Source of the DNA: Terriglobia bacterium
GTDB taxonomy: Bacteria > Acidobacteriota > Terriglobia > 20CM-2-55-15
DNA: 42,543 nucleotides
Reading direction: 5' to 3'
Assembly: GCA_036496425.1 (NCBI GenBank)
Contig: DASXLG010000307.1
Coordinates: 1-42,543 of the forward strand
Position numbers and translations under genes: made by a program. The notes beneath the pieces were generated by a model that was not told the origin of the DNA, did not search any database, and was given only the letters and a program-made list of their open reading frames with translations. Positions within the stretch are counted from its first letter, which is position 1; each line of letters begins with the position of its first letter. This document shows, one piece after another, positions 14,697 to 27,457 of the stretch.

Positions 14697-15707
14697 TTGG
14701 CTCGCATCATTCTCGGAATCGGCACCTCGCACGGACCGATGCTATCGATCGCGCCCGAGTTGTGGCCGGAACGCGTCAAAGCGGACCGGACGAATCCGCA
14801 ACACTTCTATCAAGGCCGGACCTATACGTTCGACGATCTGGTGGCCCGGCGCCGGAATGAAAATCTGGCGGCGCAATGCACGCCCGAAGTGCGCCGCGAA
14901 CGGCATGAGCGATGCCGGCAGGCGATCCTGAAACTTGCGGATATCTTCGATCAGGCCAGGCCGGACGCCGCCGTCGTGGTGGGGAACGATCAGATGGAGG
15001 TCTTCACCAGCGAGCACGTGCCGGCCTTCGCGGTTTTCTGGGGCGGCTTTGTGGAAGGCATTCCACGCACGCCGGAGTTTCTGGCGAAACTGCCGCCGGG
15101 AATCGCATCTGCCGAAGCCGATCGAACGCCATCCGAATACACGCAGTACCCAACGCTGCCGGAGCTCGGACGGCACATCATCGAAAGCTCGATGCAGGAA
15201 GGCTTCGACGTCGCTCAGCTCACCAGGCTGACGACCGGAGAAATCGGCTCGAATGCCGTACCGCACGCCTGGGGTTTTGTTTACCGCCGCATCATGCGGG
15301 ACAAGGTCGTGCCCCATGTACCGGTTTTCGTGAACACGTTCTATGCGCCGAACCAGCCGCCGGCCCTGCGATGCTTCAACTTCGGGCGGGCGATTGCCCG
15401 AGCCATCTCGTCATGGGCGCCACAGAAGACCGTTGCGGTGATCGCCTCGGGCGGTTTGACGCATTGGGTGCTGGATGAGCCGTTCGACCACATGGTGCTC
15501 GAGGCGCTGAAGCGCGCAGATGCCGCCGCACTGGCGCAAATTCCCGAGTCAATGTGGCAGGCCGGCACCTCGGAAATTAAAAACTGGATAACGGTGGCCG
15601 GCATTATGGCCGAGACACGCTTGAAGATGGATGTCGTGGACTATGTGCCGTGTTATCGGTCGGACGCCGGCACCGGCAATGCGATGGGTTTCGCGTCCTG
15701 GAGTTGA
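14697..15707 (+). CDS. LigB-type extradiol ring-cleavage dioxygenase
   Basis: 336 aa, starting at TTG (14697) with a strong GGGGAG six bases before it. The N-terminus RIILGIGTSHGPML contains the first iron-ligand His (H12) typical of class III extradiol enzymes (LigB, gallate and protocatechuate 4,5-dioxygenases). PDAAVVVGNDQME follows, with SGGLTHWVLDEPFDH near the C-terminus. The family opens catechol-type rings next to a hydroxyl using Fe(II) and O2. No LigA-type small subunit is encoded nearby, so it is of the single-chain kind. Substrate unknown. The neighbouring SDR and NMT1-like binding protein suggest uptake and breakdown of an aromatic acid. Confidence 0.9.
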   Translation: MARIILGIGTSHGPMLSIAPELWPERVKADRTNPQHFYQGRTYTFDDLVARRRNENLAAQCTPEVRRERHERCRQAILKLADIFDQARPDAAVVVGNDQMEVFTSEHVPAFAVFWGGFVEGIPRTPEFLAKLPPGIASAEADRTPSEYTQYPTLPELGRHIIESSMQEGFDVAQLTRLTTGEIGSNAVPHAWGFVYRRIMRDKVVPHVPVFVNTFYAPNQPPALRCFNFGRAIARAISSWAPQKTVAVIASGGLTHWVLDEPFDHMVLEALKRADAAALAQIPESMWQAGTSEIKNWITVAGIMAETRLKMDVVDYVPCYRSDAGTGNAMGFASWS

Positions 15708-15717
15708 TTGGCAATTT

Positions 15718-16752
15718 TCAATGGAAAGCAAGTTTGGCCTTCCGGTCTTCTTCGGCCTTGATCCCGGGGCCGTATAGCTGTTCGAAGAAGCCTTCCTTCA
15801 CGAGACGCGCGACGATGCTGTTGTCGATGACGGAGCGAAAGTTGAATGCTTTCATCTGTGCCCCGACCTGAGCGTCCGAGGGATGATCGAGAATGTATTG
15901 CACCGCGGCCGTCAGGATGTACGGGACCCGTTCGTACGTGTTGATTTGCGAGTAATGGTCGTAGACGCGCTCCATGTCTGCCGGGTCCTGCTTGTCCCAG
16001 GCGAGATACGCCTTCACGGCGAAGGCCTTGTCATCATAGAAGCGTTTGATGGCCTCCGCGTGCGCTTTGATCAGCGCTTCGGGCAGCTTCGGGTTGGAAG
16101 CCACGAGGCTCTTCTTGAAGAGATAAACCGAGGGCGCATAGATGTCATCGTAGTCGCTGATATTGGCGAGGCTCTTATAACCTTCCTGTTCCAGCTTGAA
16201 ATAAACCGGCGCGGTGATCATCGTCGCATCGACACGATTTGCCACAAGCGCGGCCGCGCGGCCGGTAACGTCGGTGCCGACGCTGAGCCATTGCACATCG
16301 CGCTGCGTCAGGCCGGCTTTGGCCAGAAGGCCGATCGTGTAGTTGTAGGGCGCGTCGCCGATCTGGCTCACACCGAGTCGTTTGCCTTTCAGATCCTTCA
16401 TGCTGGTGATGGTCTTGTTCGCCATCAGCGCGAAAAGGCTTTTCTTGAAGGGACTGCCGACCATGACGAGGGATGCATCCTTCGAACTCGCCTGCATGGC
16501 CTGTTCGAGAGTGTACGGAGTCATCGCCGCTTCACCGCTGACGATCATCGCGATGCCCGCCGGATGCACACCGAAGGCCAGTTTCACGTCGTAACCATAC
16601 TTGGCGTAGTAGCCGCCTTCTTTCGCAATGTATAGCGGCCAGACCTGCCCGGTGCGTGTGGGATAGTTGATCGTGATCGGCGTCAGTGGCTGCTGCGGCA
16701 AAGACACCAGGGTTGAAACACTCAAGACCAGCGCGGCGATAAACATTCTCAT
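15718..16752 (-). CDS. NMT1/SsuA-like ABC transporter substrate-binding protein
   Basis: 344 aa from the ATG at 16752 (AGGAG upstream). The signal peptide is MRMFIAALVLSVSTLVSL. The mature part, beginning ITINYPTRTGQVWPLYIAKE, shows the NMT1/taurine-binding pattern: a GGYYAKYGYDV element, a VDATMITAPVYFK lid segment and IKAHAEAIKRFYDD near the end. It would deliver a small organic ligand to an importer, but no permease or ATPase gene adjoins it (the nearest such set is at 34.9-37.4 kb). It converges on the dioxygenase gene, ten bases apart. Confidence 0.88.
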   Translation of the reverse strand: MRMFIAALVLSVSTLVSLPQQPLTPITINYPTRTGQVWPLYIAKEGGYYAKYGYDVKLAFGVHPAGIAMIVSGEAAMTPYTLEQAMQASSKDASLVMVGSPFKKSLFALMANKTITSMKDLKGKRLGVSQIGDAPYNYTIGLLAKAGLTQRDVQWLSVGTDVTGRAAALVANRVDATMITAPVYFKLEQEGYKSLANISDYDDIYAPSVYLFKKSLVASNPKLPEALIKAHAEAIKRFYDDKAFAVKAYLAWDKQDPADMERVYDHYSQINTYERVPYILTAAVQYILDHPSDAQVGAQMKAFNFRSVIDNSIVARLVKEGFFEQLYGPGIKAEEDRKAKLAFH

Positions 16753-16899
16753 GCGGGACTCCTGTCGCCAAAGAATATGCGAAATGAGCGGCATGTCGTC
16801 AATATTTCGAACACCCTTTGGAAAACGAAGACTACCTCAAGGGGCTCGAAAATCTGCGGCTGTTGAGTGGCCTGATTCCTGAACCGCGCGTTCTCTGTT

Positions 16900-16932
16900 G
16901 CGCTTTTGTGCCTTTGTGGCTAATCCCCCTCT
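16900..16932. repeat. TTTTGTGCCTTTGTGGCT-type repeat overlapping a stop codon
   Basis: GCGCTTTTGTGCCTTTGTGGCTAATCCCCC is a half of the palindromic repeat seen complete at 40352-40412. The reverse strand of this copy supplies the last codons and the TAG of the epoxide-hydrolase-like gene (…GAGGGGGATTAG). Confidence 0.6.
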
Positions 16933-17813
16933 ATGGCGGTTTCGCCGGCCGTCTCCAATTGGAAAAACTCTATCAGGAGCTCGGACACCTTTGCCGGCTC
17001 CTCGTGTCCAAGCCAGTGAGTGGCATCGGGGAAGGGGAAGAATTCGGCATGAGTGCAATAACCCAGGCTTTCACGGGCCATTTCCAACAGCAGGAAATTG
17101 TCGCGTTCTCCCCACAGGATGCGCGTGGGCACACGCACGGTGCGGTCGGCAAAGCCCGTCCGGTAGCGCACGGCGGCGCGATACCAGTTGATCATGGCGG
17201 TGGGGGCGCCGGGCTGCGACCAAGCCGCGCGGTATTGCGCAAGATCGTCGGCAGAGAACGTGCCAGGACGGCTCGAGCGAAGCAGCGCGCGCCTGCCAGC
17301 GTAAAAATCAAATGCCGGCAACAATCGTTCCGGCAACCAGGGAATTTGAAAGAAAAATATGAACCAGCTTCGCATCATCTGCCGCGCCCGCGTACTCAGA
17401 AAACGGCGCATAACCGAGGGATGCGGCACATTGACGATGGCGAGCTTTGCAATGCGCTCAGGATGGAAGACGGCTGTGCTCCAGGCGACAGCGCCGCCCC
17501 AATCGTGACCCGCAAGAAAAATTCTCTTCTGTTCCAACTGATCGGCAATCGCGATCACGTCCGCAACGAGCTCGCTCAGCGCGTATGAAGCCACGCCTCG
17601 GGGCTTGCTGCTCAAATTGTATCCGCGCTGATCCGGCACGATGACGCGAAAGCCAGCCTCTGCCAGCGGTTCGATTTCTTTATACCAGCCATACCAGAAC
17701 TCGGGGAAACCATGGAGAAGCACGGCGACCGGTCCATCCTTTGGTCCTGCCGCCATGGCATGCAATACCACACGGCCGTTCTCAAAAAGAATTTTCTCGA
17801 GAGGCGTTTTCAT
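16920..17813 (-). CDS. alpha/beta hydrolase, epoxide hydrolase-like
   Basis: 297 aa. The oxyanion motif HGFPEFWYGW, the nucleophile elbow AGHDWGGA (Asp as nucleophile, as in epoxide hydrolases and dehalogenases), the acid in WGERDNFL and the final His in DATHWLGHEEP are all present. A lid region rich in Trp/Phe (RSWFIFFFQIPWLPERLLPAF) suggests a hydrophobic substrate. It is the last gene of the minus-strand operon, 14 bases after the JmjC-like gene. With a P450 and a desaturase in the same operon, a plausible role is opening an epoxide on an acyl chain; this is inference. Its 3' end lies in a dispersed repeat. Confidence 0.9.
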   Translation of the reverse strand: MKTPLEKILFENGRVVLHAMAAGPKDGPVAVLLHGFPEFWYGWYKEIEPLAEAGFRVIVPDQRGYNLSSKPRGVASYALSELVADVIAIADQLEQKRIFLAGHDWGGAVAWSTAVFHPERIAKLAIVNVPHPSVMRRFLSTRARQMMRSWFIFFFQIPWLPERLLPAFDFYAGRRALLRSSRPGTFSADDLAQYRAAWSQPGAPTAMINWYRAAVRYRTGFADRTVRVPTRILWGERDNFLLLEMARESLGYCTHAEFFPFPDATHWLGHEEPAKVSELLIEFFQLETAGETAIEGD

Positions 17814-17827
17814 CGAAGCACCGGTCT

Positions 17828-18865
17828 TTAGTCGGCATTGAGTGAGAGCCGGCGGACGGCCTTCGAGCGCTTGTCCGCGGCGAAGACGCGGATGAAGTCG
17901 CCGTCGTACTTGCTCGCTTCCCAGATCGGCGGGCTGGTCGAGAGCATCGTCAGGAGCGTCATCGTCGGCGACGCCCGGAGCATCGCGTCGAGCGAGATCC
18001 AGCGGACGCCGACGCCAATCGCGTCGCTCAGGTTCTCCACCTGGTGCCAGAAGAACGACGGGTTGTAGAGGATGTCGCCCGGCTCGAGCGTGACTTCGAA
18101 GCCGTCGACGAAGGGGAACATCGCGTAGCGGTTTTCGTCCGGCTTGTCCGGATCGAGATCGGTCATGAAATATGGCGTCCGGATGACGGAGGCATTGATC
18201 GCCGGGTTCAGCGACGTCGGGTAGATCCGCCAGTGCTTCCGGCCGTGGACCTCAACGAAGAGGTTCTCCGCCCCGGCGGCGTGCAGGCTCGTCTTTGTGT
18301 TTTTGCCGCCGAGGAACATGTTGAAGGTGAGGTGGCCCCCGATCTTCGACTTGAGGCTCGAGAGGAACCTGACGTCGAAGTCGTCGACGAGCTCAGGGTG
18401 CTTCTTCAGCAGCGGATGAAAGCGGGCGTATTTCTTCCCCCCAGCCTGGAGGCTGCGGACGACCTCACGAAGGGTCGTCATCTGGACCTCGTGGCCGAAC
18501 TCCTTGCCCGGCTTTCGTTCGCCGAGGAGCGCCTCATCGTCACCGTACTGATCGGCGATGAAGTCGGGCGTCCACTTCGACGTGCACGGCCAATCGAGGG
18601 CCGCACCCTCGAAGACGACCGGTATCGACCGGTCGCTATAGCGTGACTTGAAGTCCTCCGCGCTCAGGTTCCGGACCTTGTCGACCGAAACGAGCTTCCC
18701 CGTGGGCCGGCCCTGGACACGTGTGAGCATCCGGTCGGCGAGCCGTTTTCGCAGCGGGCCGACCGCGGTTCGGCCGAGGCAGTGCTCGCCCATCCAGAGG
18801 GCGTTGAAGAGGGCTTTGTCGATACGTCTGAACGTCGATTCGCCGAGCATGAAAACCTCTGCCAT
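17828..18865 (-). CDS. cupin/JmjC-like protein with an altered iron site
   Basis: 345 aa. A Cupin_8/JmjC core spans ~75-310: IPVVFEGAALDWPC, then LTFNMFLGG, the first metal motif region TSLHAAGAENLFVEVHG, KHWRIYP, and the distal His in LEPGDILYNPSFFWHQVENL. Fe(II)/2-oxoglutarate hydroxylases of this fold usually have HxD/E at the first site (for example LHYDxxEN); here the sequence is LHAAGAEN, so the acidic ligand is Ala. It may bind metal with two His, use E in GAEN instead, or be non-catalytic. It sits between the desaturase (12 bases before it) and the hydrolase. Role in the cluster unknown. Confidence 0.85.
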   Translation of the reverse strand: MAEVFMLGESTFRRIDKALFNALWMGEHCLGRTAVGPLRKRLADRMLTRVQGRPTGKLVSVDKVRNLSAEDFKSRYSDRSIPVVFEGAALDWPCTSKWTPDFIADQYGDDEALLGERKPGKEFGHEVQMTTLREVVRSLQAGGKKYARFHPLLKKHPELVDDFDVRFLSSLKSKIGGHLTFNMFLGGKNTKTSLHAAGAENLFVEVHGRKHWRIYPTSLNPAINASVIRTPYFMTDLDPDKPDENRYAMFPFVDGFEVTLEPGDILYNPSFFWHQVENLSDAIGVGVRWISLDAMLRASPTMTLLTMLSTSPPIWEASKYDGDFIRVFAADKRSKAVRRLSLNAD

Positions 18866-18877
18866 TTTATGTGATGC

Positions 18878-19675
18878 TCACAGGAATCCGGGTTCGTCGC
18901 CAGGGTTTGTTGCCAGGACGTCGTCAATAGAGCGCCTTTGTTCCACGCCGGAGGTTCGAAATCGCAGGATCCGGAGTTGTTTCAGCAGCCAGATGAGCGG
19001 GTATGCCGGATCGAATTCAAACCAGCGTACCGCGAAATGCGGCCGCATCGGATAGCGATGATGGTTATTCTGATAGAGTTCACCCATCATCAGCAAATCG
19101 ACGGGAAGCGTGTTGCGTGACCGGTCGCGCAATGCAAAGTTCCGGTATCCATAGCAATGACCGCACCAATTGACGATCGCGCCATGGACCACGCCGATCA
19201 GGAAGTGCAGCGGCAACAAAGCAAACATCCACAAGGATGTCGCGAACTGCCAGTAAAACCAGAAGTAAAGAACTCCCCACGAGACCCGCGTGTACATGGA
19301 ATCGCCAAAACGGTCCAGCGCTTCCCATTCCGGCACATCGCCCGTAAATTCGACGGCCGGCTCGATTTTCCGTTGGACCAGGCCGGCATATGTCCACTTC
19401 GTCTGCCACATCATCCGCGCCGGATTTGTGAAAAAATGCGGTGAATGGGGATCGCGTTGGGTATCGCTGTAGGCATGATGCATCCGATGCAGAATTGCGT
19501 AAGCTCGTGGCACCAGAAACGACGCGCCCTGGCTAAGAAATGTCAGCAAGTAAAACACTCGCTCGGCGGGACGCGAGAGCGTAAACATCCGGTGCGCGCC
19601 GTAGCGGTGCAGGAAAAAGGTTTGTGAAAACAGGCTGAGGAACCAGTGGATGGTGAGGAAAATGAATATCGGCAC
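18878..19675 (-). CDS. membrane fatty-acid (acyl-CoA/acyl-lipid) desaturase
   Basis: 265 aa. The three histidine boxes of the stearoyl-CoA delta-9 type desaturases are all present: HRYGAHR, HRMHHAYSD and NNHHRYP. Four hydrophobic segments place them at the cytoplasmic face. The reaction is O2- and di-iron-dependent introduction of a double bond into an acyl chain. It is 15 bases after the P450 stop and 12 bases before the JmjC-like start, hence in one operon. The electron donor is not encoded nearby. Confidence 0.93.
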   Translation of the reverse strand: MPIFIFLTIHWFLSLFSQTFFLHRYGAHRMFTLSRPAERVFYLLTFLSQGASFLVPRAYAILHRMHHAYSDTQRDPHSPHFFTNPARMMWQTKWTYAGLVQRKIEPAVEFTGDVPEWEALDRFGDSMYTRVSWGVLYFWFYWQFATSLWMFALLPLHFLIGVVHGAIVNWCGHCYGYRNFALRDRSRNTLPVDLLMMGELYQNNHHRYPMRPHFAVRWFEFDPAYPLIWLLKQLRILRFRTSGVEQRRSIDDVLATNPGDEPGFL

Positions 19676-19690
19676 GGTTGCGGCGAGACC

Positions 19691-21079
19691 TCAGTTCGTG
19701 TTGGCGGATCGCCGCCGCACCAGCTTTAACATCAACGTATTGTCCTCCGGCAGCAAGGTCACCCCGAGGTGGAGGCCGGGCGTCATCTGCGGCGGCGCAA
19801 AGTTAAACTCCTGCAGGATGCGGGAAACGACGAATCTGCTTTCCACCATTCCGAAAGTATTGCCGATGCAGGTCCTTGGTCCGCCGCCAAACGGGAAATA
19901 AGCAAAGTGCGGCAAACGCGAGATAAAATCGGGGCTCCAGCGCTCCGGGCGAAACTGTTCCGGCTCGTCATAGTAACGCGGCGAGCGATGAACCGCCCAT
20001 TGCGGAATCACAAGCTCGGCGCCGGCGGTTACCTTGGTGGCGCCCAAGTGACAGGTCTCCACGACAGTCCGGCTGATGCGGTATGCCGGCGGATAGAGCC
20101 GCATGGCTTCGCGCAGGACCTGCTCGATCATGCCGCTTTCGCTGCCGTCCTGAATGTGATGCCGCAGCCTCTCGGTGATTTCCGGATGTCGGGCCAGCAG
20201 ATAGAACGTCCAGGTGAGGACGGCTGCGCCCGTTTCGTGTCCGGCGAAAAACATCGTTACGACTTCGTCCCGGATCTGGCGGTCGCTCAGAGGGTGTCCC
20301 GACTCATCGCGAGCCGCGAGCAATAATCCCAGCAGATCAGGTTGCAACGGCTCCTGGCGTTTTCGCTTGATGATTTTGTTTACCGCCTGATCCAGTAGAG
20401 CGACGGCATCACGAAAACGTTTTGCGTACCCGGTCGGCAGGATGCAGGGATCGATGACAAAATCGGGGCGTCCCAACCATGTCGCGACGGTGCGAAAAGC
20501 CGTGAAAAACAGACCGCCAAATGAGCCGATCCATTCCGAGTAGTGATCGTGAAACGCATGCAGCGCCTCGGCCGCCTGCGCCACGAGCCGGCGTTCGCCC
20601 ATCATGTCTTCTCCGAACAGGCTTGAGGCCAGAGCTTCGAAACAGAGGTCCGTCATGTCGCAGTGAATGTTGCGTTCGCCTCCATCTATGAACCCCGCGA
20701 GCAGCCGTGCGGTAGCGCGCTGCATACTGCTCTTGTATTGATCGACGCGCTGTGCCTGAAACGCGGGCTGCATGATGCGCCGCTGTTGGCGCCACAGCGG
20801 GCCGTCCGCTGTCAGCAACCCCCGGCCGAAACCGCGCTGGGTTGCGCGCAGTCCCGCGGATTTCATGAAGCAGCGGTGTTTCCGCACCAGCACATCCTCG
20901 ATCAGCGATGGCTCCGTCACGACATAGACCGGCAGCCGCCAGACGTGCGTTTTCACCACTCCTGCCCGGCGTTCGCAGTCCGAATAGAATTCGAGCGCAC
21001 TGCTCCCCAGAGCGAAGGCGCAGCCGCTCAGCCATGACACGGACGGGTTCTGTGAAATTACACAAGTACTTGCACTCAT
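19691..21079 (-). CDS. cytochrome P450
   Basis: 462 aa from the ATG at 21079; a GTG at 21103 would add eight residues. The haem-thiolate motif FPFGGGPRTCIGN, the I-helix AGHETGAAVLTW, the K-helix ExxR (EAMRLYPP) and the FRPERW segment are intact. In the I-helix the usual Ser/Thr/Ala after the conserved Thr is Gly. Overall pattern resembles bacterial CYPs related to fatty-acid and xenobiotic hydroxylases. No signal or N-terminal anchor is evident. It lies 60 bases after the ABC ATPase gene and directly before the desaturase, so acyl-chain hydroxylation or epoxidation is a reasonable guess. No ferredoxin or reductase gene adjoins it. Confidence 0.94.
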   Translation of the reverse strand: MSASTCVISQNPSVSWLSGCAFALGSSALEFYSDCERRAGVVKTHVWRLPVYVVTEPSLIEDVLVRKHRCFMKSAGLRATQRGFGRGLLTADGPLWRQQRRIMQPAFQAQRVDQYKSSMQRATARLLAGFIDGGERNIHCDMTDLCFEALASSLFGEDMMGERRLVAQAAEALHAFHDHYSEWIGSFGGLFFTAFRTVATWLGRPDFVIDPCILPTGYAKRFRDAVALLDQAVNKIIKRKRQEPLQPDLLGLLLAARDESGHPLSDRQIRDEVVTMFFAGHETGAAVLTWTFYLLARHPEITERLRHHIQDGSESGMIEQVLREAMRLYPPAYRISRTVVETCHLGATKVTAGAELVIPQWAVHRSPRYYDEPEQFRPERWSPDFISRLPHFAYFPFGGGPRTCIGNTFGMVESRFVVSRILQEFNFAPPQMTPGLHLGVTLLPEDNTLMLKLVRRRSANTN

Positions 21080-21139
21080 ACAAATGGGATTCGGCCTTCG
21101 CACTATACCCTGTGGACCGGAAAACTCATACGGGGGAAA

Positions 21140-22237
21140 CTATTGCCGTTGGAAAAGAATTCGCAGCAACTGTTCCTTAAAGGTTGGGCTGGCTTCAATC
21201 GCGATGTGAAAATCCTCTTTACCCAGGGTATAGAGTTCGGTATCGGTGGTAGCCATCACCGTTGCGTTACGGGGCTCGCCGGTAACCAGAGCCGCTTCAC
21301 CGAAAAATTCCCCTTCGCCTAAGGTGGCCACCAGAACTTTCTGGCCGCCCTCCTCACGATAGACGGCGGCGGATCCTGAGCGAATGATGTAGAACTTATC
21401 GCCTTGATCGCCTTGACGGACGATGGGGGCGCCGGAAGGAGTCCATTCGTGTAACACTTTATCGGCAATATCTGAAAGGCCGGTTGCACTAAGCGAGGAG
21501 AAGACCCGGCACTTCGTCAGGAACTCGCAGATTCTGACCGATTCGGCGACTTGAACGTCCGAGAAAATACGGCCATCCACCATATTGATAATACGGTCGG
21601 CAGCATCAAGGATGCGGTTATCGTGTGTGACAATTAGAATAGCGCAGCCACGCTGCCGCGCAAGTTCCTGGAGTAGCTGGATGACCTCCCGGCCCGAGTC
21701 CTTGTCGAGGGCTGCGGTCGGTTCGTCCGCCAGGATCAGACGCGGCCGATTGATCAATGCCCGAGCTATCGATACGCGCTGACGCTGGCCGCCCGACATG
21801 GCTTCCGGTTTTGCGTCAATGCGTTTTCCCAGGCCGAGCCGCTCCAGCATTTCCCCGGCCTGCCGCCGCATTTCCGGCCGTCCTGAGGGCTTTAGTTCCA
21901 GTGCCATCATCACGTTTTCAAATGCAGTGAGCGATTCAAAGAGGTTGTGCAACTGGAATATGAAACCGATTTCGCGCCGTACCCGAACCCTGGCGGCCGC
22001 AGCCAAACCGTTTAATTCGTGGCCAAAAACCCGAATGCTGCCTTCCTGGATCGACCGCAGAGCACCGGCAAGCGTGAGTAAGGTCGTTTTTCCGGAACCC
22101 GAGGGGCCGGTGAGAATGGCAATCTCGCCTGCATCGAGTTTCAAGCGATTATCGAAAAGCACTCTGCGCCGCGCGCCGCCCTCTCCGAAATAGTGCGACA
22201 GCCCGTCGACGTGAAGAATCGGCGATTCGCCGCTCAT
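21140..22237 (-). CDS. DevA/LolD-type ABC ATPase fused to a cyclic nucleotide-binding domain
   Basis: 365 aa. Residues ~1-220 are a MacB/LolD/DevA-type ATPase: Walker A GPSGSGKTT, Q-loop FQLHNL, signature SGGQRQRVSIARAL, Walker B LILADEPTAALD and the H-loop IVTHDNR. After a short linker, residues ~230-360 are a cyclic nucleotide-binding (CNB/Crp-type) domain: IVRQGDQGDKFYIIRSG and the phosphate-binding cassette FGEAALVTGEPRNATV, with the key Glu and Arg both kept. DevA-type ATPases are normally ~230 aa without this tail. The start overlaps the permease stop as ATGA. The fusion suggests that export is gated by cAMP or cGMP, or by membrane recruitment through the CNB domain. Confidence 0.95.
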   Translation of the reverse strand: MSGESPILHVDGLSHYFGEGGARRRVLFDNRLKLDAGEIAILTGPSGSGKTTLLTLAGALRSIQEGSIRVFGHELNGLAAAARVRVRREIGFIFQLHNLFESLTAFENVMMALELKPSGRPEMRRQAGEMLERLGLGKRIDAKPEAMSGGQRQRVSIARALINRPRLILADEPTAALDKDSGREVIQLLQELARQRGCAILIVTHDNRILDAADRIINMVDGRIFSDVQVAESVRICEFLTKCRVFSSLSATGLSDIADKVLHEWTPSGAPIVRQGDQGDKFYIIRSGSAAVYREEGGQKVLVATLGEGEFFGEAALVTGEPRNATVMATTDTELYTLGKEDFHIAIEASPTFKEQLLRILFQRQ

Positions 22238-23394
22238 TTGAATACCTCGGCAGGGTCGGCGGTGAGCGCTTTATGAATCGCGACCAACGCCGCCACTATC
22301 GACATCCCGGCTGTGAAGGCCAAAACAACCAGTATCCGCGGGAAAGTAAGCACCATTTCGAAGTTAATAGTCGTGACAAGCAGGTAATAGAGCCCCCACG
22401 CAACGAATACACTCGGAATGAATGCGAGCAACGACAGGAGGAGTGCCTCGTGGGTCACCAGGCGAATCAGATACGTGTTCGGATAACCGATCGCCTTCAA
22501 TGTGCCAAACAGGGGCATTCGATCCACCACGCTCGTATACAGAATCTGACTGCAGATGACGACGCCGACAATAAAGCCAATCATCAGACCCAATTTGAAA
22601 ATGAAACCGATTGGTGTATAGGACAGCCAGAAGCGGGATTCCTGGTCGATCAGCTCGGGTTTTGTCCAGATGCGCACATCGGGAGGCAAGGTCTCCTGCA
22701 GTGCTTTCCGCACCTCGGCAACCGGCTCGCCCGGGGCCACGCGGAGCAGCCCGAATTCGACCCTGCCCGTCGCCGGGCCTATGGTTCGTCGTTCGGGAAA
22801 GTACTTGAAAAAATTGGTCTCACTCATCATCAGCGTGCCATCGGACTCGAAGTCGGTCCCTAAAGAAAACGTCCCGGCTATATGGACCCGCCGTCCGGCG
22901 AGTTCCGTCTGCACACCAATTGTCAAAGGACCGAAGAACCGTCGCGAGCGGCGGTCCGCCCAGGCCGACTCGGGTTCCTGCAAATCCGCCGGCACTACCA
23001 TGAATTGCGGCAAAAAGGCAGAGTCCTGAATCGGAAGACCCACGACACGGATAATCCGCGACTGGTGGGTTTGTGGATTTCTCCAAAACGACAATTGCGA
23101 CTCTACGTAAACCGGAAGCGCAGCCGTCACGCCATTCACGGAAAGCGCCTGTTCGAGCCGCCTGTAAGGAAATGACTCATGAATACCCAGGTGATGCTTC
23201 GAACTGTTGGTGATGATCAGATCGGCATTGAACCAGCGAACCAGCTTGATCTGACCATCGACCACGGCATTCAGGAATCCCATCTGCATAAACATCAGAA
23301 CGGATGAGAACATGATCCCCGCAATGGCCAGAATCATTCGTTTCTTATCATGAGTGATACTGCGCCAGGCTAAAGGAACGCGGCGGGAAAACAT
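22234..23394 (-). CDS. DevC-like ABC exporter permease (FtsX fold)
   Basis: 386 aa. The N-terminal helix ILAIAGIMFSSVLMFMQMGF is the typical DevC/MacB opening. A large periplasmic domain (~45-255) follows, then three C-terminal helices (FKLGLMIGFIVGVVICSQIL, LLSLLAFIPSVFVAWGLYYL, ILVVLAFTAGMSIVAAL). PLFGTLKAIG between them is the FtsX coupling motif. It is the second of two permease genes, beginning one base after the first one's stop, so the exporter membrane part is probably a heterodimer. Confidence 0.92.
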   Translation of the reverse strand: MFSRRVPLAWRSITHDKKRMILAIAGIMFSSVLMFMQMGFLNAVVDGQIKLVRWFNADLIITNSSKHHLGIHESFPYRRLEQALSVNGVTAALPVYVESQLSFWRNPQTHQSRIIRVVGLPIQDSAFLPQFMVVPADLQEPESAWADRRSRRFFGPLTIGVQTELAGRRVHIAGTFSLGTDFESDGTLMMSETNFFKYFPERRTIGPATGRVEFGLLRVAPGEPVAEVRKALQETLPPDVRIWTKPELIDQESRFWLSYTPIGFIFKLGLMIGFIVGVVICSQILYTSVVDRMPLFGTLKAIGYPNTYLIRLVTHEALLLSLLAFIPSVFVAWGLYYLLVTTINFEMVLTFPRILVVLAFTAGMSIVAALVAIHKALTADPAEVFK

Positions 23395-23395
23395 T

Positions 23396-24523
23396 TCAGT
23401 ACAGTACGGCAGGGTCTGCCTGGCGCAGCTTGCGCATGGCGAGCAGTCCGGCCGACCAGCACATGAAAACGGTAAGGATCAGAATCAACGCCGCACGAGA
23501 TACCGGCATCGTCATTGGGAGGCCTGTGTTATCACGAACCGCCTTGTAGAGGGCCACCGAAAGGATCCAACCGAAGCCGAATCCTACGACTGCGAAAATC
23601 GATACTTCTTCAAAAACGATCCATTTCAGCGTTGCGTGATCGTAGCCGAGTGCGAGCAGGGTGGCGTACTCCCGCATCCGATTAGCAATGTCCGTCGCCA
23701 TGACCTGATAGAGAATCACGACTCCGACCACAAGCCCGAGGCCCGCGCCCAAGGCAAAGACCGGACCTATGGAAGTCTCCCTGGCCCAGAAATCATCTTC
23801 CTGAGCCATCATCTCCGCACGGGTCAGCACGCGTGTATCTGTTGGAATAATTGTGCGCAGTGCAGCAGCAGCGGCTGCCACGCCTGCAGCCGGGCGGACA
23901 TGAACGAGGCCGAGGCTGACTTGTTCCGGACTCCCGCTTTTATGCAGGCTGAGGAACGTATCCTCGCTCGTGACCGCCGCGCCGTCGGTGGCGAAGCCGG
24001 GCCCGATCCGATACTGGCCGGAGATCTGGATACGGTAGCCGCCAATCTCCGTTGTCGTGCCTGGATCCTGAGGGCCAAAGTGCGGACGGGATAATGAATC
24101 GATGAGGATTCGCCCATCGGTCAACAATTTCATCGATTCCGCCGGCAACTGCAGCGGATTCTTGGAAGGATCGAAGCCGAGAAGCAAAATCTGGTAGCGC
24201 AGGCGGCTCACAGGATTACGCCACTGTTGTGTATCCGCATAGAAGGCGACGGCGTCGGTGACTCCGCTGACGCTTTTGGCCTGGAATAGGCGCGTCCTTG
24301 GAATGGTACCGGTCTGGCCAAGATATTGATACTGAGGTGAGATCAGAAAAATATCGGCGTCGGTTGCATCGTAGACTGCCGTTGCCGAGCTCAGAATGGC
24401 CGCATGAAAGCCCAACTCCATAAAAATGAGGAGGACCGAAAAAGTCACGCCGGATAATGCGACAAGAGCGCGTACCTTCCTATGGGTCAGATTCCGCCAG
24501 GCGAATGGAGTGCGCGATCGCAT
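23396..24523 (-). CDS. DevC-like ABC exporter permease (FtsX fold), first of two
   Basis: 375 aa from the ATG at 24523, seven bases after the fusion-protein stop; starts further upstream would overlap that gene by 100 bases and add a charged tail. Topology matches the second permease: helix 1 ALVALSGVTFSVLLIFMELGF, a periplasmic domain, then helices including GLGLVVGVVILYQVMA, the motif EYATLLALGYDHATL, and ILILTVFMCWSAGLLA. It shows only distant similarity to its neighbour, again suggesting a heterodimeric pore. Confidence 0.92.
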   Translation of the reverse strand: MRSRTPFAWRNLTHRKVRALVALSGVTFSVLLIFMELGFHAAILSSATAVYDATDADIFLISPQYQYLGQTGTIPRTRLFQAKSVSGVTDAVAFYADTQQWRNPVSRLRYQILLLGFDPSKNPLQLPAESMKLLTDGRILIDSLSRPHFGPQDPGTTTEIGGYRIQISGQYRIGPGFATDGAAVTSEDTFLSLHKSGSPEQVSLGLVHVRPAAGVAAAAAALRTIIPTDTRVLTRAEMMAQEDDFWARETSIGPVFALGAGLGLVVGVVILYQVMATDIANRMREYATLLALGYDHATLKWIVFEEVSIFAVVGFGFGWILSVALYKAVRDNTGLPMTMPVSRAALILILTVFMCWSAGLLAMRKLRQADPAVLY

Positions 24524-24530
24524 CTGAATC

Positions 24531-25640
24531 CTATTTACTCGTGTCGATTCGGACCTCGACCTGTAGACCGACGAAGCGAGACGCTTCTTCACTATCCGCC
24601 AAGCGCGCACGGATTTGTACGACGCGTGCATCGGCGTCTTCTTGTGGATCTATGCTCCTTACCTGGCGTTTGAAAACGCTGGTACCTATTCGTTCAACAA
24701 CTCCGCTCTGTGTTTTGGAAAGAGCCGGACTGGTGACGTGCACGCCCTGACCCACTCGGACCCGGGCGACATCGGTTTCATACACCTCCGCCATCACGTA
24801 CATTTGGCCGACATCTCCCATCCTCAAAATGACGCGGCCCATGACAGCTTCACCGGGACTGGCGGCAATCTCGATAATTTGTCCATTGGAGGGGGCGCGG
24901 ACAACGGATTTTTCGAGTTCAACTTCCGAAACATGCACCGCTTGCCTTAACGATTCCAACTGCCCCGACGCCTGAACGCTCTGCAACTCGGCCCGCCGGG
25001 TTGCCAATTGAGCTTCAGCCAGCCATCGATCCGTCTGCGCCGCTGCCTGCACCTCGCTTAGCGTTGCCTCTTCCGCTTCGATGTTGGCCTTCAGGCGGTC
25101 TAACTGTGATGCCTGCCGTTCCGACTCCTGGCGCGTGCCGACACCAGACCGTTCCAAACCGCGAATACGTTCCAGTTCGGTGGCCGCAAAAGCGAAATCC
25201 GCACGGAGAGCGCGGAGCTTCGCCTGCTGGGCCTCAATTTTGCGCATCGGTGCTTCGCTAAGCTGCTGAAGCCGGACGTTAGCTTCATGGATTCGCGCTT
25301 GAGCCGCTTCGGTATTGGCCCGTAATTGCGCCTCGGCATCGCGAAGTTGGCTGGCAGCGCGATCCCGCGCTGCCATGCGGGTTTTGTAGCTTTCGACGTA
25401 GGCGAGTACCTCTCCGGCTTTGACGAACTGACCTTGTTTCACCAGCAGTTCTTGCAGCCGCTCGTCACCGGCAACACCGATTTCAACTACTCTGTTTTCC
25501 GGCTCGAGACGACCCAGGGCTACGATATCGCGCGTCCGCGGTGGATTGTCCGGGTTCGCAGACGGTTTGGTTTGCGGCTGACATGCTGCGCCGGCAAGGC
25601 CGAAAAGGAGCAGAGCGCATGCTGTCAGAGGCGGATTCAT
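24531..25640 (-). CDS. DevB/HlyD-type membrane fusion lipoprotein
   Basis: 369 aa from the ATG at 25640, chosen because it places a lipoprotein signal (ALLLFGLAGAAC, lipobox LAGAAC) at the N-terminus; an ATG at 25658 is also possible. The mature part starts with VALGRLEPENRVVEIGV, the signature of DevB-family fusion proteins. A lipoyl half-motif, a long coiled coil (~75-230, rich in Ala/Arg/Glu/Gln) and the second lipoyl half (KSVVRAPSNGQIIEIAASPGE) follow, then a beta-barrel region. It connects the permeases to the outer membrane. First gene of the operon, divergent from the TIGR03435 gene at 25778, so the operon promoter should lie within about 25641-25770. Confidence 0.92.
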   Translation of the reverse strand: MNPPLTACALLLFGLAGAACQPQTKPSANPDNPPRTRDIVALGRLEPENRVVEIGVAGDERLQELLVKQGQFVKAGEVLAYVESYKTRMAARDRAASQLRDAEAQLRANTEAAQARIHEANVRLQQLSEAPMRKIEAQQAKLRALRADFAFAATELERIRGLERSGVGTRQESERQASQLDRLKANIEAEEATLSEVQAAAQTDRWLAEAQLATRRAELQSVQASGQLESLRQAVHVSEVELEKSVVRAPSNGQIIEIAASPGEAVMGRVILRMGDVGQMYVMAEVYETDVARVRVGQGVHVTSPALSKTQSGVVERIGTSVFKRQVRSIDPQEDADARVVQIRARLADSEEASRFVGLQVEVRIDTSK

Positions 25641-25777
25641 GTGAAAAAAGTCTAACATGGAGGAGAATAGACGAAGCACGACGGGCAATACGAAAAAATC
25701 CTATCGGGCATTCAACTCTTTTGGCCCGCGGGGCGTCTACTAAGTGACAGCTGCAAACCCTCGAGAACGGAGAGATG

Positions 25778-27457
25778 ATGCGCGCATTCGCATCGTTATC
25801 CTTGACTGTCACTCTGGCCATCGCCGCGTTTGGTCAATCGGCGGAGACTCCTGCTTCGTTTGAAATTGCAGACATCCACTCGAGTACTCGAACGAGCACT
25901 TTATCTTTTATGCGGACGACGAATCGGCCCGGCCGGTACGAGCTGGATAACGCCTCGATGCTGGAACTGATACGGACTGCATACACCTTCGACGCGAATA
26001 AAGTCGTCGGCGGGCCAACCTGGCTGGACTACGACCGGTTCGATGTCATCGTCAAGACGGCAGCGAAAATGCCGGACGCCGAAACTCTAAAACTAATGCT
26101 TCAGAACCTTCTGGCGGACCGCTTCAAGCTGGTGGTTCATAAGGATATCCAGCCCGTCACGGGTTGGGTTCTGGCGGTGGGCAAGGGCAAGCATAAGCTG
26201 AAGGAATCGGATGGGAAGGGCGAAACGGGGTGCAAGCTTCAGGCGCAAACGTCCACTCCGGTTCAGATCACGGGTGGCGTTTTCAACGTTCCGACACGCT
26301 CCTTCTCCTGCCGTAACATCACGATGGAGAAATTTGCCGAAGAACTCCGCGGGATGGCGCCTGGAGACCTAACGAACGCCGTCGTGGATTCGACTGGATT
26401 GAAAGGCGCCTGGGATTTCGATCTCAAGTGGCAGCAAGGGGGAATTCTGCAACTTCTGGGAGCCTCAGCGGATGTCGTCACGCTCCCCGCCGCGATCGAT
26501 AAGCAGCTCGGCCTCAAGCTCGACGAGCAGAAAATTCCGACGGCCGTCCTCGTCGTGGACAAGGTGAACGAAAAGCCAACAGACAATGCAGCGGATATCG
26601 CCATAAAGCTGCCGCCTCCTCCGCCGGTCGAGTTCGAGGTAGTCGATATCAAGCCGAGCATTCCGCTCACCGCGGCAAACGTTCAACAAGCCATCGCCGG
26701 AGCGGGCAGGGCCGGCTTCTTTCCAGGCGGCCGGGTCAATTTGCCTCGCTTTAATCTGAGGACCGCAATCCTCTATGCCTTCAACCTGGTAGCCGTCGAC
26801 GACATCGCTAATGTGCCGAACTGGTTCACAACCACCAACTTCGACATCGTTGCAAAGGCGCCGGCTGAAGTCTCGCCGGTCAGCGGTCATGCGCCCATTC
26901 AGGATCTTGGCCCGATGTTGAAGGCGATGCTGATCGATCGTTTCAAATTGAAAGCCCATTTCGAGGACCGGCCGGTGAATGCCTACACCCTGCTGGCGCC
27001 AAAACCGAAACTCAAAAAGGCGGATCTCACGCGGCGAACGGGCTGCAAGACGGCAAATGCTTCAAATTCAAATTCGAACTCCAGCCCGTTTGGATTCCTC
27101 GCGCTGCCGGACCGAATCGTTACATGCCAGAACATCACAATGGCGCAGTTTACGGATCAGTTGGAAGTCCTCGCTCAAAACTACGTTCACTATCCGGTGA
27201 CAAATGGAACGGGGCTCGACGGAGCCTGGGATTTTTCGTTCACCTACACGCCATTTATCCTCAACCAGGTCGCGGGGGCGCGTGGAGCGGCGCCTCCCGG
27301 CGCCGGGCCAGAGGCTCCGGCCGCGGCTGAGCCTGGTGGTGGGACCACTCTCTTCGATGCGGTGGATAAGCAACTCGGGTTGAAACTTGAAATGCAGAAG
27401 CATCCGTACCCGATTCTGGTTATTGACCACATCGAGGAAAAGCCGACGGAGAATTGA
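25778..27457 (+). CDS. TIGR03435 family protein with two tandem domains
   Basis: 559 aa. ATG codons at 25775 and 25778 are adjacent; GGAG five bases before the second favours 25778. A signal peptide (RAFASLSLTVTLAIAAFGQS) is followed by two full TIGR03435 units. Unit 1 runs ~28-265 (FEIADIHSS ... NLLADRFKLVVHKD ... LGLKLDEQKIPTAVLVVDKVNEKPTDN). Unit 2 runs ~285-559 (FEVVDIKPS ... AMLIDRFKLKAHFED ... LGLKLEMQKHPYPILVIDHIEEKPTEN). Pro-rich linker PPPPPVEF joins them. Typical members have one unit of ~270 aa. Each unit carries paired Cys (TGCK ... SCRN; TGCK ... TCQN) that could form a disulphide. Function unknown. Confidence 0.93.
   Translation: MRAFASLSLTVTLAIAAFGQSAETPASFEIADIHSSTRTSTLSFMRTTNRPGRYELDNASMLELIRTAYTFDANKVVGGPTWLDYDRFDVIVKTAAKMPDAETLKLMLQNLLADRFKLVVHKDIQPVTGWVLAVGKGKHKLKESDGKGETGCKLQAQTSTPVQITGGVFNVPTRSFSCRNITMEKFAEELRGMAPGDLTNAVVDSTGLKGAWDFDLKWQQGGILQLLGASADVVTLPAAIDKQLGLKLDEQKIPTAVLVVDKVNEKPTDNAADIAIKLPPPPPVEFEVVDIKPSIPLTAANVQQAIAGAGRAGFFPGGRVNLPRFNLRTAILYAFNLVAVDDIANVPNWFTTTNFDIVAKAPAEVSPVSGHAPIQDLGPMLKAMLIDRFKLKAHFEDRPVNAYTLLAPKPKLKKADLTRRTGCKTANASNSNSNSSPFGFLALPDRIVTCQNITMAQFTDQLEVLAQNYVHYPVTNGTGLDGAWDFSFTYTPFILNQVAGARGAAPPGAGPEAPAAAEPGGGTTLFDAVDKQLGLKLEMQKHPYPILVIDHIEEKPTEN

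Follow-up and report, generated by a model that had tools for sequence, protein, structure and literature searches.

Does an eight-gene run in the genome of a soil-dwelling Terriglobia bacterium (Acidobacteriota) encode a dedicated system for making and exporting an oxidised lipid? The run occupies 16,920 to 25,640, on the minus strand, of a 42,543-nucleotide stretch (assembly GCA_036496425.1, contig DASXLG010000307.1, positions 1 to 42,543), the whole of which we call the window. A first-pass annotation had described it as an operon joining a DevBCA-like exporter, gated by a cyclic nucleotide monophosphate (cNMP), to lipid-modifying oxygenases. Open reading frames (ORFs), their coordinates and profile searches of the window proteins against Pfam and NCBIfam confirm eight minus-strand genes in the order claimed, from a membrane fusion protein (MFP) gene to a hydrolase gene, with intergenic spacings of 7, 1, -4 (an overlap), 60, 15, 12 and 14 bases; we infer that the eight are co-transcribed. 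The widest spacing (60 bases, 21080..21139) is the seam that divides the exporter genes from those for the enzymes, and a crude scan of 21079-21140 called neither a promoter nor a terminator there, although the scan has little power (13 terminator-like sites against 10.9 expected over the whole stretch). We read the locus as a composite operon of two older modules and one recent insertion, which together may make and export an oxidised lipid, a reading that we hold tentatively and with confidence just short of even.

The upstream module consists of four genes, all of which exceed the cut-offs of DevBCA-family models: a DevB-family MFP (24531..25640, searched as 24537-25640; TIGR02971, 245.5 bits against a cut-off of 129, and HlyD_D23), the FtsX-like permease DevC1 (23396..24523, searched as 23396-24631; TIGR01185, 293.8 bits against 290.35), the FtsX-like permease DevC2 (22234..23394; 292.1 bits against the same cut-off) and a DevA-type ATP-binding cassette (ABC) ATPase with a C-terminal cNMP domain (21140..22237; TIGR02982, 328.1 bits against 295.8). 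Both permeases clear their cut-off by just 2-3 bits, and the DevC1 ORF opens at 24631, with homology beginning only from the ATG at 24523. The MFP had been called a fusion lipoprotein; its DevB family stands, and its lipobox is non-canonical (GAAC), which makes a lipoprotein probable and not certain. The order MFP-permease-ATPase on one strand is that of the DevBCA family, with two permease genes instead of one. The cNMP_binding domain scores 86 bits over residues 267-347 of the DevA protein, and its phosphate-binding cassette, FGEAALVTGEPRNATV at 312, is intact when aligned to cGMP-dependent kinases.

This arrangement recurs in two distant members of the phylum, G401 and G435 (loci L056 and L057), both of which keep the order MFP-DevC-DevC-DevA. 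Their DevA proteins match that of the window at 52-55%, through the cNMP domain, and keep the cassette FGEAALVTGEPRNATV. Adjacent DevC pairs occur in three genomes (these two and the window's own), TIGR01185 matches at 1e-50 being found in 8 of 396 phylum genomes. In a DevC tree, the window DevC1 clusters with the first DevC of G401 and G435 (support 95/97) and DevC2 with the second (97/98), a positional grouping which implies that the tandem duplication predates the split of these lineages. In the DevA tree the window row falls in no well-supported fork, and one row (L062) is broken, with a very long branch. DevA was sought in 81 relatives, 379 genomes of the class and 396 of the phylum, overlapping samples in which only 5-24 candidates were scored per genome; these scans, like those for the P450 and JmjC proteins below, are weak for distant relatives. 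It was matched over both domains in three of the 396 phylum genomes, within the class in the window's genome alone (among 379), and at 1e-70 neither in five congeners nor in plasmid records. A TolC query taken from another acidobacterial locus (L042, below) had no match in the window; a TolC relative does adjoin a DevB-DevC pair on contig C32 (L058) of the window's own genome. As judged from sequence, the MFP-DevC1-DevC2-DevA/cNMP set is an old, independent unit and a variant of the DevBCA family. Its permease is probably a DevC1-DevC2 heterodimer, and a nucleotide signal probably acts on the pump through the cNMP domain. Of the earlier term cNMP-gated, then, the conserved domain and intact cassette hold, gating being a prediction drawn solely from that domain.

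The second module is built around a cytochrome P450 (19691..21079; PF00067, 235 bits) and a membrane fatty-acid desaturase with a GTG start (18878..19675; PF00487 FA_desaturase, 70 bits). The P450 retains its I-helix AGxET motif (AGHET, 279-283), ExxR (324-327) and heme Cys loop (Cys404). The desaturase carries the His boxes HRYGAH, HRMHH and QNNHH, the first His of the third box being Gln in all three copies aligned. The window's genome has a further P450 (60%) and a further desaturase (66%) on its contig C279 (L039), separated by three ORFs: one of 510 aa without a family, one of 730 aa with two separate stretches matching BcrAD_BadFG, and a DUF2229 protein. Next after these comes a fatty-acyl reductase-like protein. 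Ger is described as PlsA-like, validated cases having two PF01869 domains, and the two are said to be inseparable at present from sequence alone, in the part of the source consulted (PMC13274423); we therefore name the L039 set PlsA/Ger-like. As an observation in its own right, L039 (G000:C279:1380-10059), which runs unbroken from the P450 to the fatty-acyl reductase-like gene, is a candidate ether-lipid operon.

A congener, G002, holds the pair as well (L040; P450 68-76%, desaturase 74%), and 12 bases after it begins a MacB/FtsX permease gene that runs off the contig. Searches for the P450 covered the 396 phylum genomes, 11 family genomes and, with two short patterns, a genome contig collection. 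It was found at 1e-80 in 2 of the 11 family genomes; the short patterns gave 29 loci, with one close relative at 68% (L064) and the rest at or below 36%; and plasmid records yielded only matches below 60% identity. From these sequence comparisons the P450-desaturase pair appears to be a unit of its own, recurring without DevBCA at L039 and L040. Here it is joined by an alpha/beta-hydrolase of epoxide-hydrolase type (16920..17813; Abhydrolase_1, 105 bits), detected at 1e-40 in the window's own genome only among the 11 family genomes. Its best PDB matches are epoxide hydrolases, with 5ng7 at the top (E 3.4e-57), and it has the triad Asp104, Asp238 and His266 and, of the two lid Tyr residues usual in such enzymes, one (Tyr211), each residue being assigned what we take to be its usual role.

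Between desaturase and hydrolase sits a Cupin_8/JmjC protein (17828..18865; Cupin_8, 109 bits; JmjC_2, 34 bits) whose iron-binding HxD motif reads HAA (His195, Ala197), the distal His (His274) being kept. JMJD5 has HQD at this position, and the three aligned relatives have HYD, HYD and HFD. We reject an ordinary JmjC hydroxylase on account of the HxA site, which departs from the HxD/E...H triad. The protein matches the pattern HXA/G...H that has been sought for 2-oxoglutarate halogenases; in FIH, an Asp-to-Gly change keeps some activity and an Asp-to-Ala change does not (the consulted part of PMC10947486). By its motif, the protein would be either halogenase-like or inactive, so that of the earlier name JmjC/cupin oxygenase the family stands and the oxygenase is doubtful. 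The Ala codon, GCC as read by eye, is one base off an Asp codon, and an assembly error is possible.

The gene also differs in composition: its G+C content at third codon positions (GC3) is 0.873, against 0.59-0.75 in 13 other window genes, and its codon usage diverges by 0.240, where the same 13 give 0.041-0.099. The highest GC3 among 39 ORFs of three other own-genome contigs, some surely not genes, is 0.763. Codon usage thus points to a foreign gene and a late arrival. No donor was found; the protein was sought in 297 phylum genomes and by six exact 8-mers in the genome contig collection, none of whose 8-mer matches was confirmed, and plasmid records gave only distant matches. One such distant relative, on an Eleftheria terrae plasmid (L093, 3995-4852), has an HYD motif and stands directly after a very long nonribosomal peptide synthetase (NRPS) gene.

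Conservation of the gene order in other Acidobacteriota, which the first-pass annotation had offered as a check, was not seen in any other genome examined, and on these scans, weak for distant relatives, we reject a conserved eight-gene system. In G002, the window genes 14697-15707 and 15718-16794 have orthologues (75% and 73%) that are adjacent, as the two are here, and beyond them lie short ORFs, sigma/anti-sigma-like by eye, in place of the operon. The neighbour on the other flank, the protein at 25775-27457, has seven matches in its own genome, counting itself, and a search of five congeners at 1e-60 gave none. A site without the operon on one side and a flank that cannot be compared on the other fit acquisition or rearrangement in this lineage. 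Among the open-access papers listed by our searches, no title or abstract opening described the combination.

DevBCA-type genes do stand beside lipid enzymes elsewhere in the phylum. In an Acidobacterium genome (G011; L042, G011:C25:22001-42000), DevB-DevC, a DevA-GAF protein and an outer membrane efflux protein lie in a sterol-type cluster that includes a squalene-epoxidase-family protein, a cyclase with DCTAE (a motif we take to be an oxidosqualene cyclase signature), a P450, a Sterol_MT_C methyltransferase and a Rieske/KshA_C oxygenase. L042 may itself be a sterol exporter locus. Contig C74 of the window's own genome is arranged much like it (L041, G000:C74:37565-57564): a DevA-GAF protein is accompanied by a P450 at 59% to its L042 counterpart, by 3-beta-HSD-like and Rieske proteins and by a cyclase (48%) that the end of the contig truncates. 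Lipid enzymes thus neighbour DevBCA-type genes repeatedly in the phylum, the enzymes varying from case to case, and the sterol-type neighbours favour lipid export as a general role. Apart from L041, L042 and the window P450, the L042 sterol-type enzymes gave one weak match, to a FAD protein (L115). Nor does every DevBCA unit have such neighbours: none of the four window enzymes was matched at L056 to L063.

If the modules do work together, the desaturase would introduce a double bond into a lipid chain, the double-bonded chain would undergo epoxidation or hydroxylation by the P450, the hydrolase would open the epoxide to a diol, and the pump would deliver the resulting lipid to the outer envelope via a TolC-type channel whose gene lies elsewhere. 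No role is given to the JmjC protein, with its HxA site and late arrival. In favour of this reading, desaturase, P450 and epoxide hydrolase form a chemically coherent set, and the P450-desaturase pair stands beside an ABC permease gene in a congener and beside ether-lipid-type genes in the window's own genome. Several observations weigh against it. The eight-gene combination has no second copy in any genome examined, and its modules are found apart: none of the four window enzymes was matched at 1e-6 in the 20 kb around the exporter units of G401 and G435, and the enzymes occur without DevBCA. The operon has neither a redox partner gene nor a TolC gene, and its JmjC gene, foreign in composition, encodes a protein that is missing an iron ligand. 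The best PDB relatives of the P450 are carotenoid/terpenoid and mixed-substrate P450s (class names that are in part our own assumption), ranking above the fatty-acid enzyme BM3, so that an acyl substrate is not implied and the substrate class is not fixed. The hydrolase has Phe at its other lid position, as does 5ng7.

A joint function of exporter and enzymes is plausible, then, and the description of a biosynthesis-plus-export system is supported by the operon layout, the DevBCA families and the enzyme set. It is weakened by occurrence in a single genome and by the independence of the modules. The first-pass annotation had itself named separate occurrence of exporter and enzyme genes in related genomes as evidence that would refute it, and such occurrence is what we see, the exporter standing without the enzymes in L056 and L057 and the P450-desaturase pair without DevBCA in L039 and L040, so that a dedicated system is only partly supported. 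A more elaborate version strikes us as decidedly unlikely: a heterodimeric DevC pump, switched by a nucleotide bound to its own ATPase, would secrete a chain-oxidised lipid, possibly halogenated by the HxA cupin protein and made by the co-transcribed P450, desaturase and hydrolase, and one signal would control release of this envelope or signalling lipid.

It is a real possibility, if a less probable one, that the modules share a transcript by position only, the pump carrying other cargo in the manner of MacAB/DevBCA-type pumps and the enzymes remodelling membrane lipids in place, for example ether-lipid chains. The separate occurrence of exporter and enzymes just described speaks for this arrangement; the L039 pair has Ger-like ether-lipid genes as neighbours, with no match to an exporter gene at that locus, and the seam is the widest gap of the operon. 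Yet that gap is 60 bases on one strand with no terminator called, and the L040 pair again stands upstream of an ABC permease gene. We consider it unlikely that this is a small secondary-metabolite locus in which enzymes tailoring a terpenoid or polyketide are served by an efflux pump of their own: the P450 does resemble terpenoid-type P450s and DevBCA adjoins sterol-type genes in G011, but family profile searches found no terpene cyclase, polyketide synthase or NRPS among the eight genes, and the paralogous pair in L039 keeps the company of fatty-acyl and ether-lipid-type genes. A detoxification locus, in which hydrolase and P450 would process oxidised lipids or xenobiotics and a MacAB-like pump eject the products, accords with an epoxide hydrolase beside a drug-pump-like architecture but is highly improbable, as the desaturase has no obvious place in it and no stress regulator is evident by eye among the listed flanking ORFs, which were not domain-searched.

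Acidobacteriota are common in soil, and their envelopes are poorly understood. Were the composite making-and-exporting reading correct, DevBCA pumps equipped with built-in cNMP or GAF sensory domains would serve these bacteria in exporting lipids, every pump having its own partner set of lipid-making enzymes, and the role of DevBCA would reach beyond heterocyst glycolipids. The locus would also offer a direct example of an ABC lipid exporter under nucleotide control, and its genes would lead to an oxidised or ether lipid that is new.

How does the locus compare with known systems? JMJD5-type JmjC hydroxylases are the best PDB matches of the cupin protein, which keeps the distal His and the Lys of GRK (residues whose roles we presume) and differs in having HxA where they have HxD. 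The PlsA/Ger ether-lipid reductases are linked to the locus through L039, where such genes are flanked by paralogues of the window P450 and desaturase; the eight genes themselves include nothing Ger-like. In Anabaena, DevBCA and the TolC homologue HgdD export heterocyst glycolipids, according to the consulted part of the source (PMC6161253). The window shares with that system DevB, DevC and DevA models over cut-off in B-C-A order, and differs in its two DevC genes, in the cNMP domain on DevA, and in having neither glycolipid synthase genes nor a TolC gene alongside. HetC of Nostoc, as far as the consulted part of its description goes (PMC10986499), is an ABC exporter that needs its own fused cNMP domain in vivo and binds ppGpp but not cAMP; it is peptidase-containing and its cNMP domain N-terminal, whereas that of the window DevA is C-terminal. 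The acidobacterial DevBCA variants with DevA-GAF (L042, L041) have GAF instead of cNMP, a single DevC and adjoining sterol-type genes; like the window, they carry a sensory domain at the C-terminus of a DevA-family ATPase.

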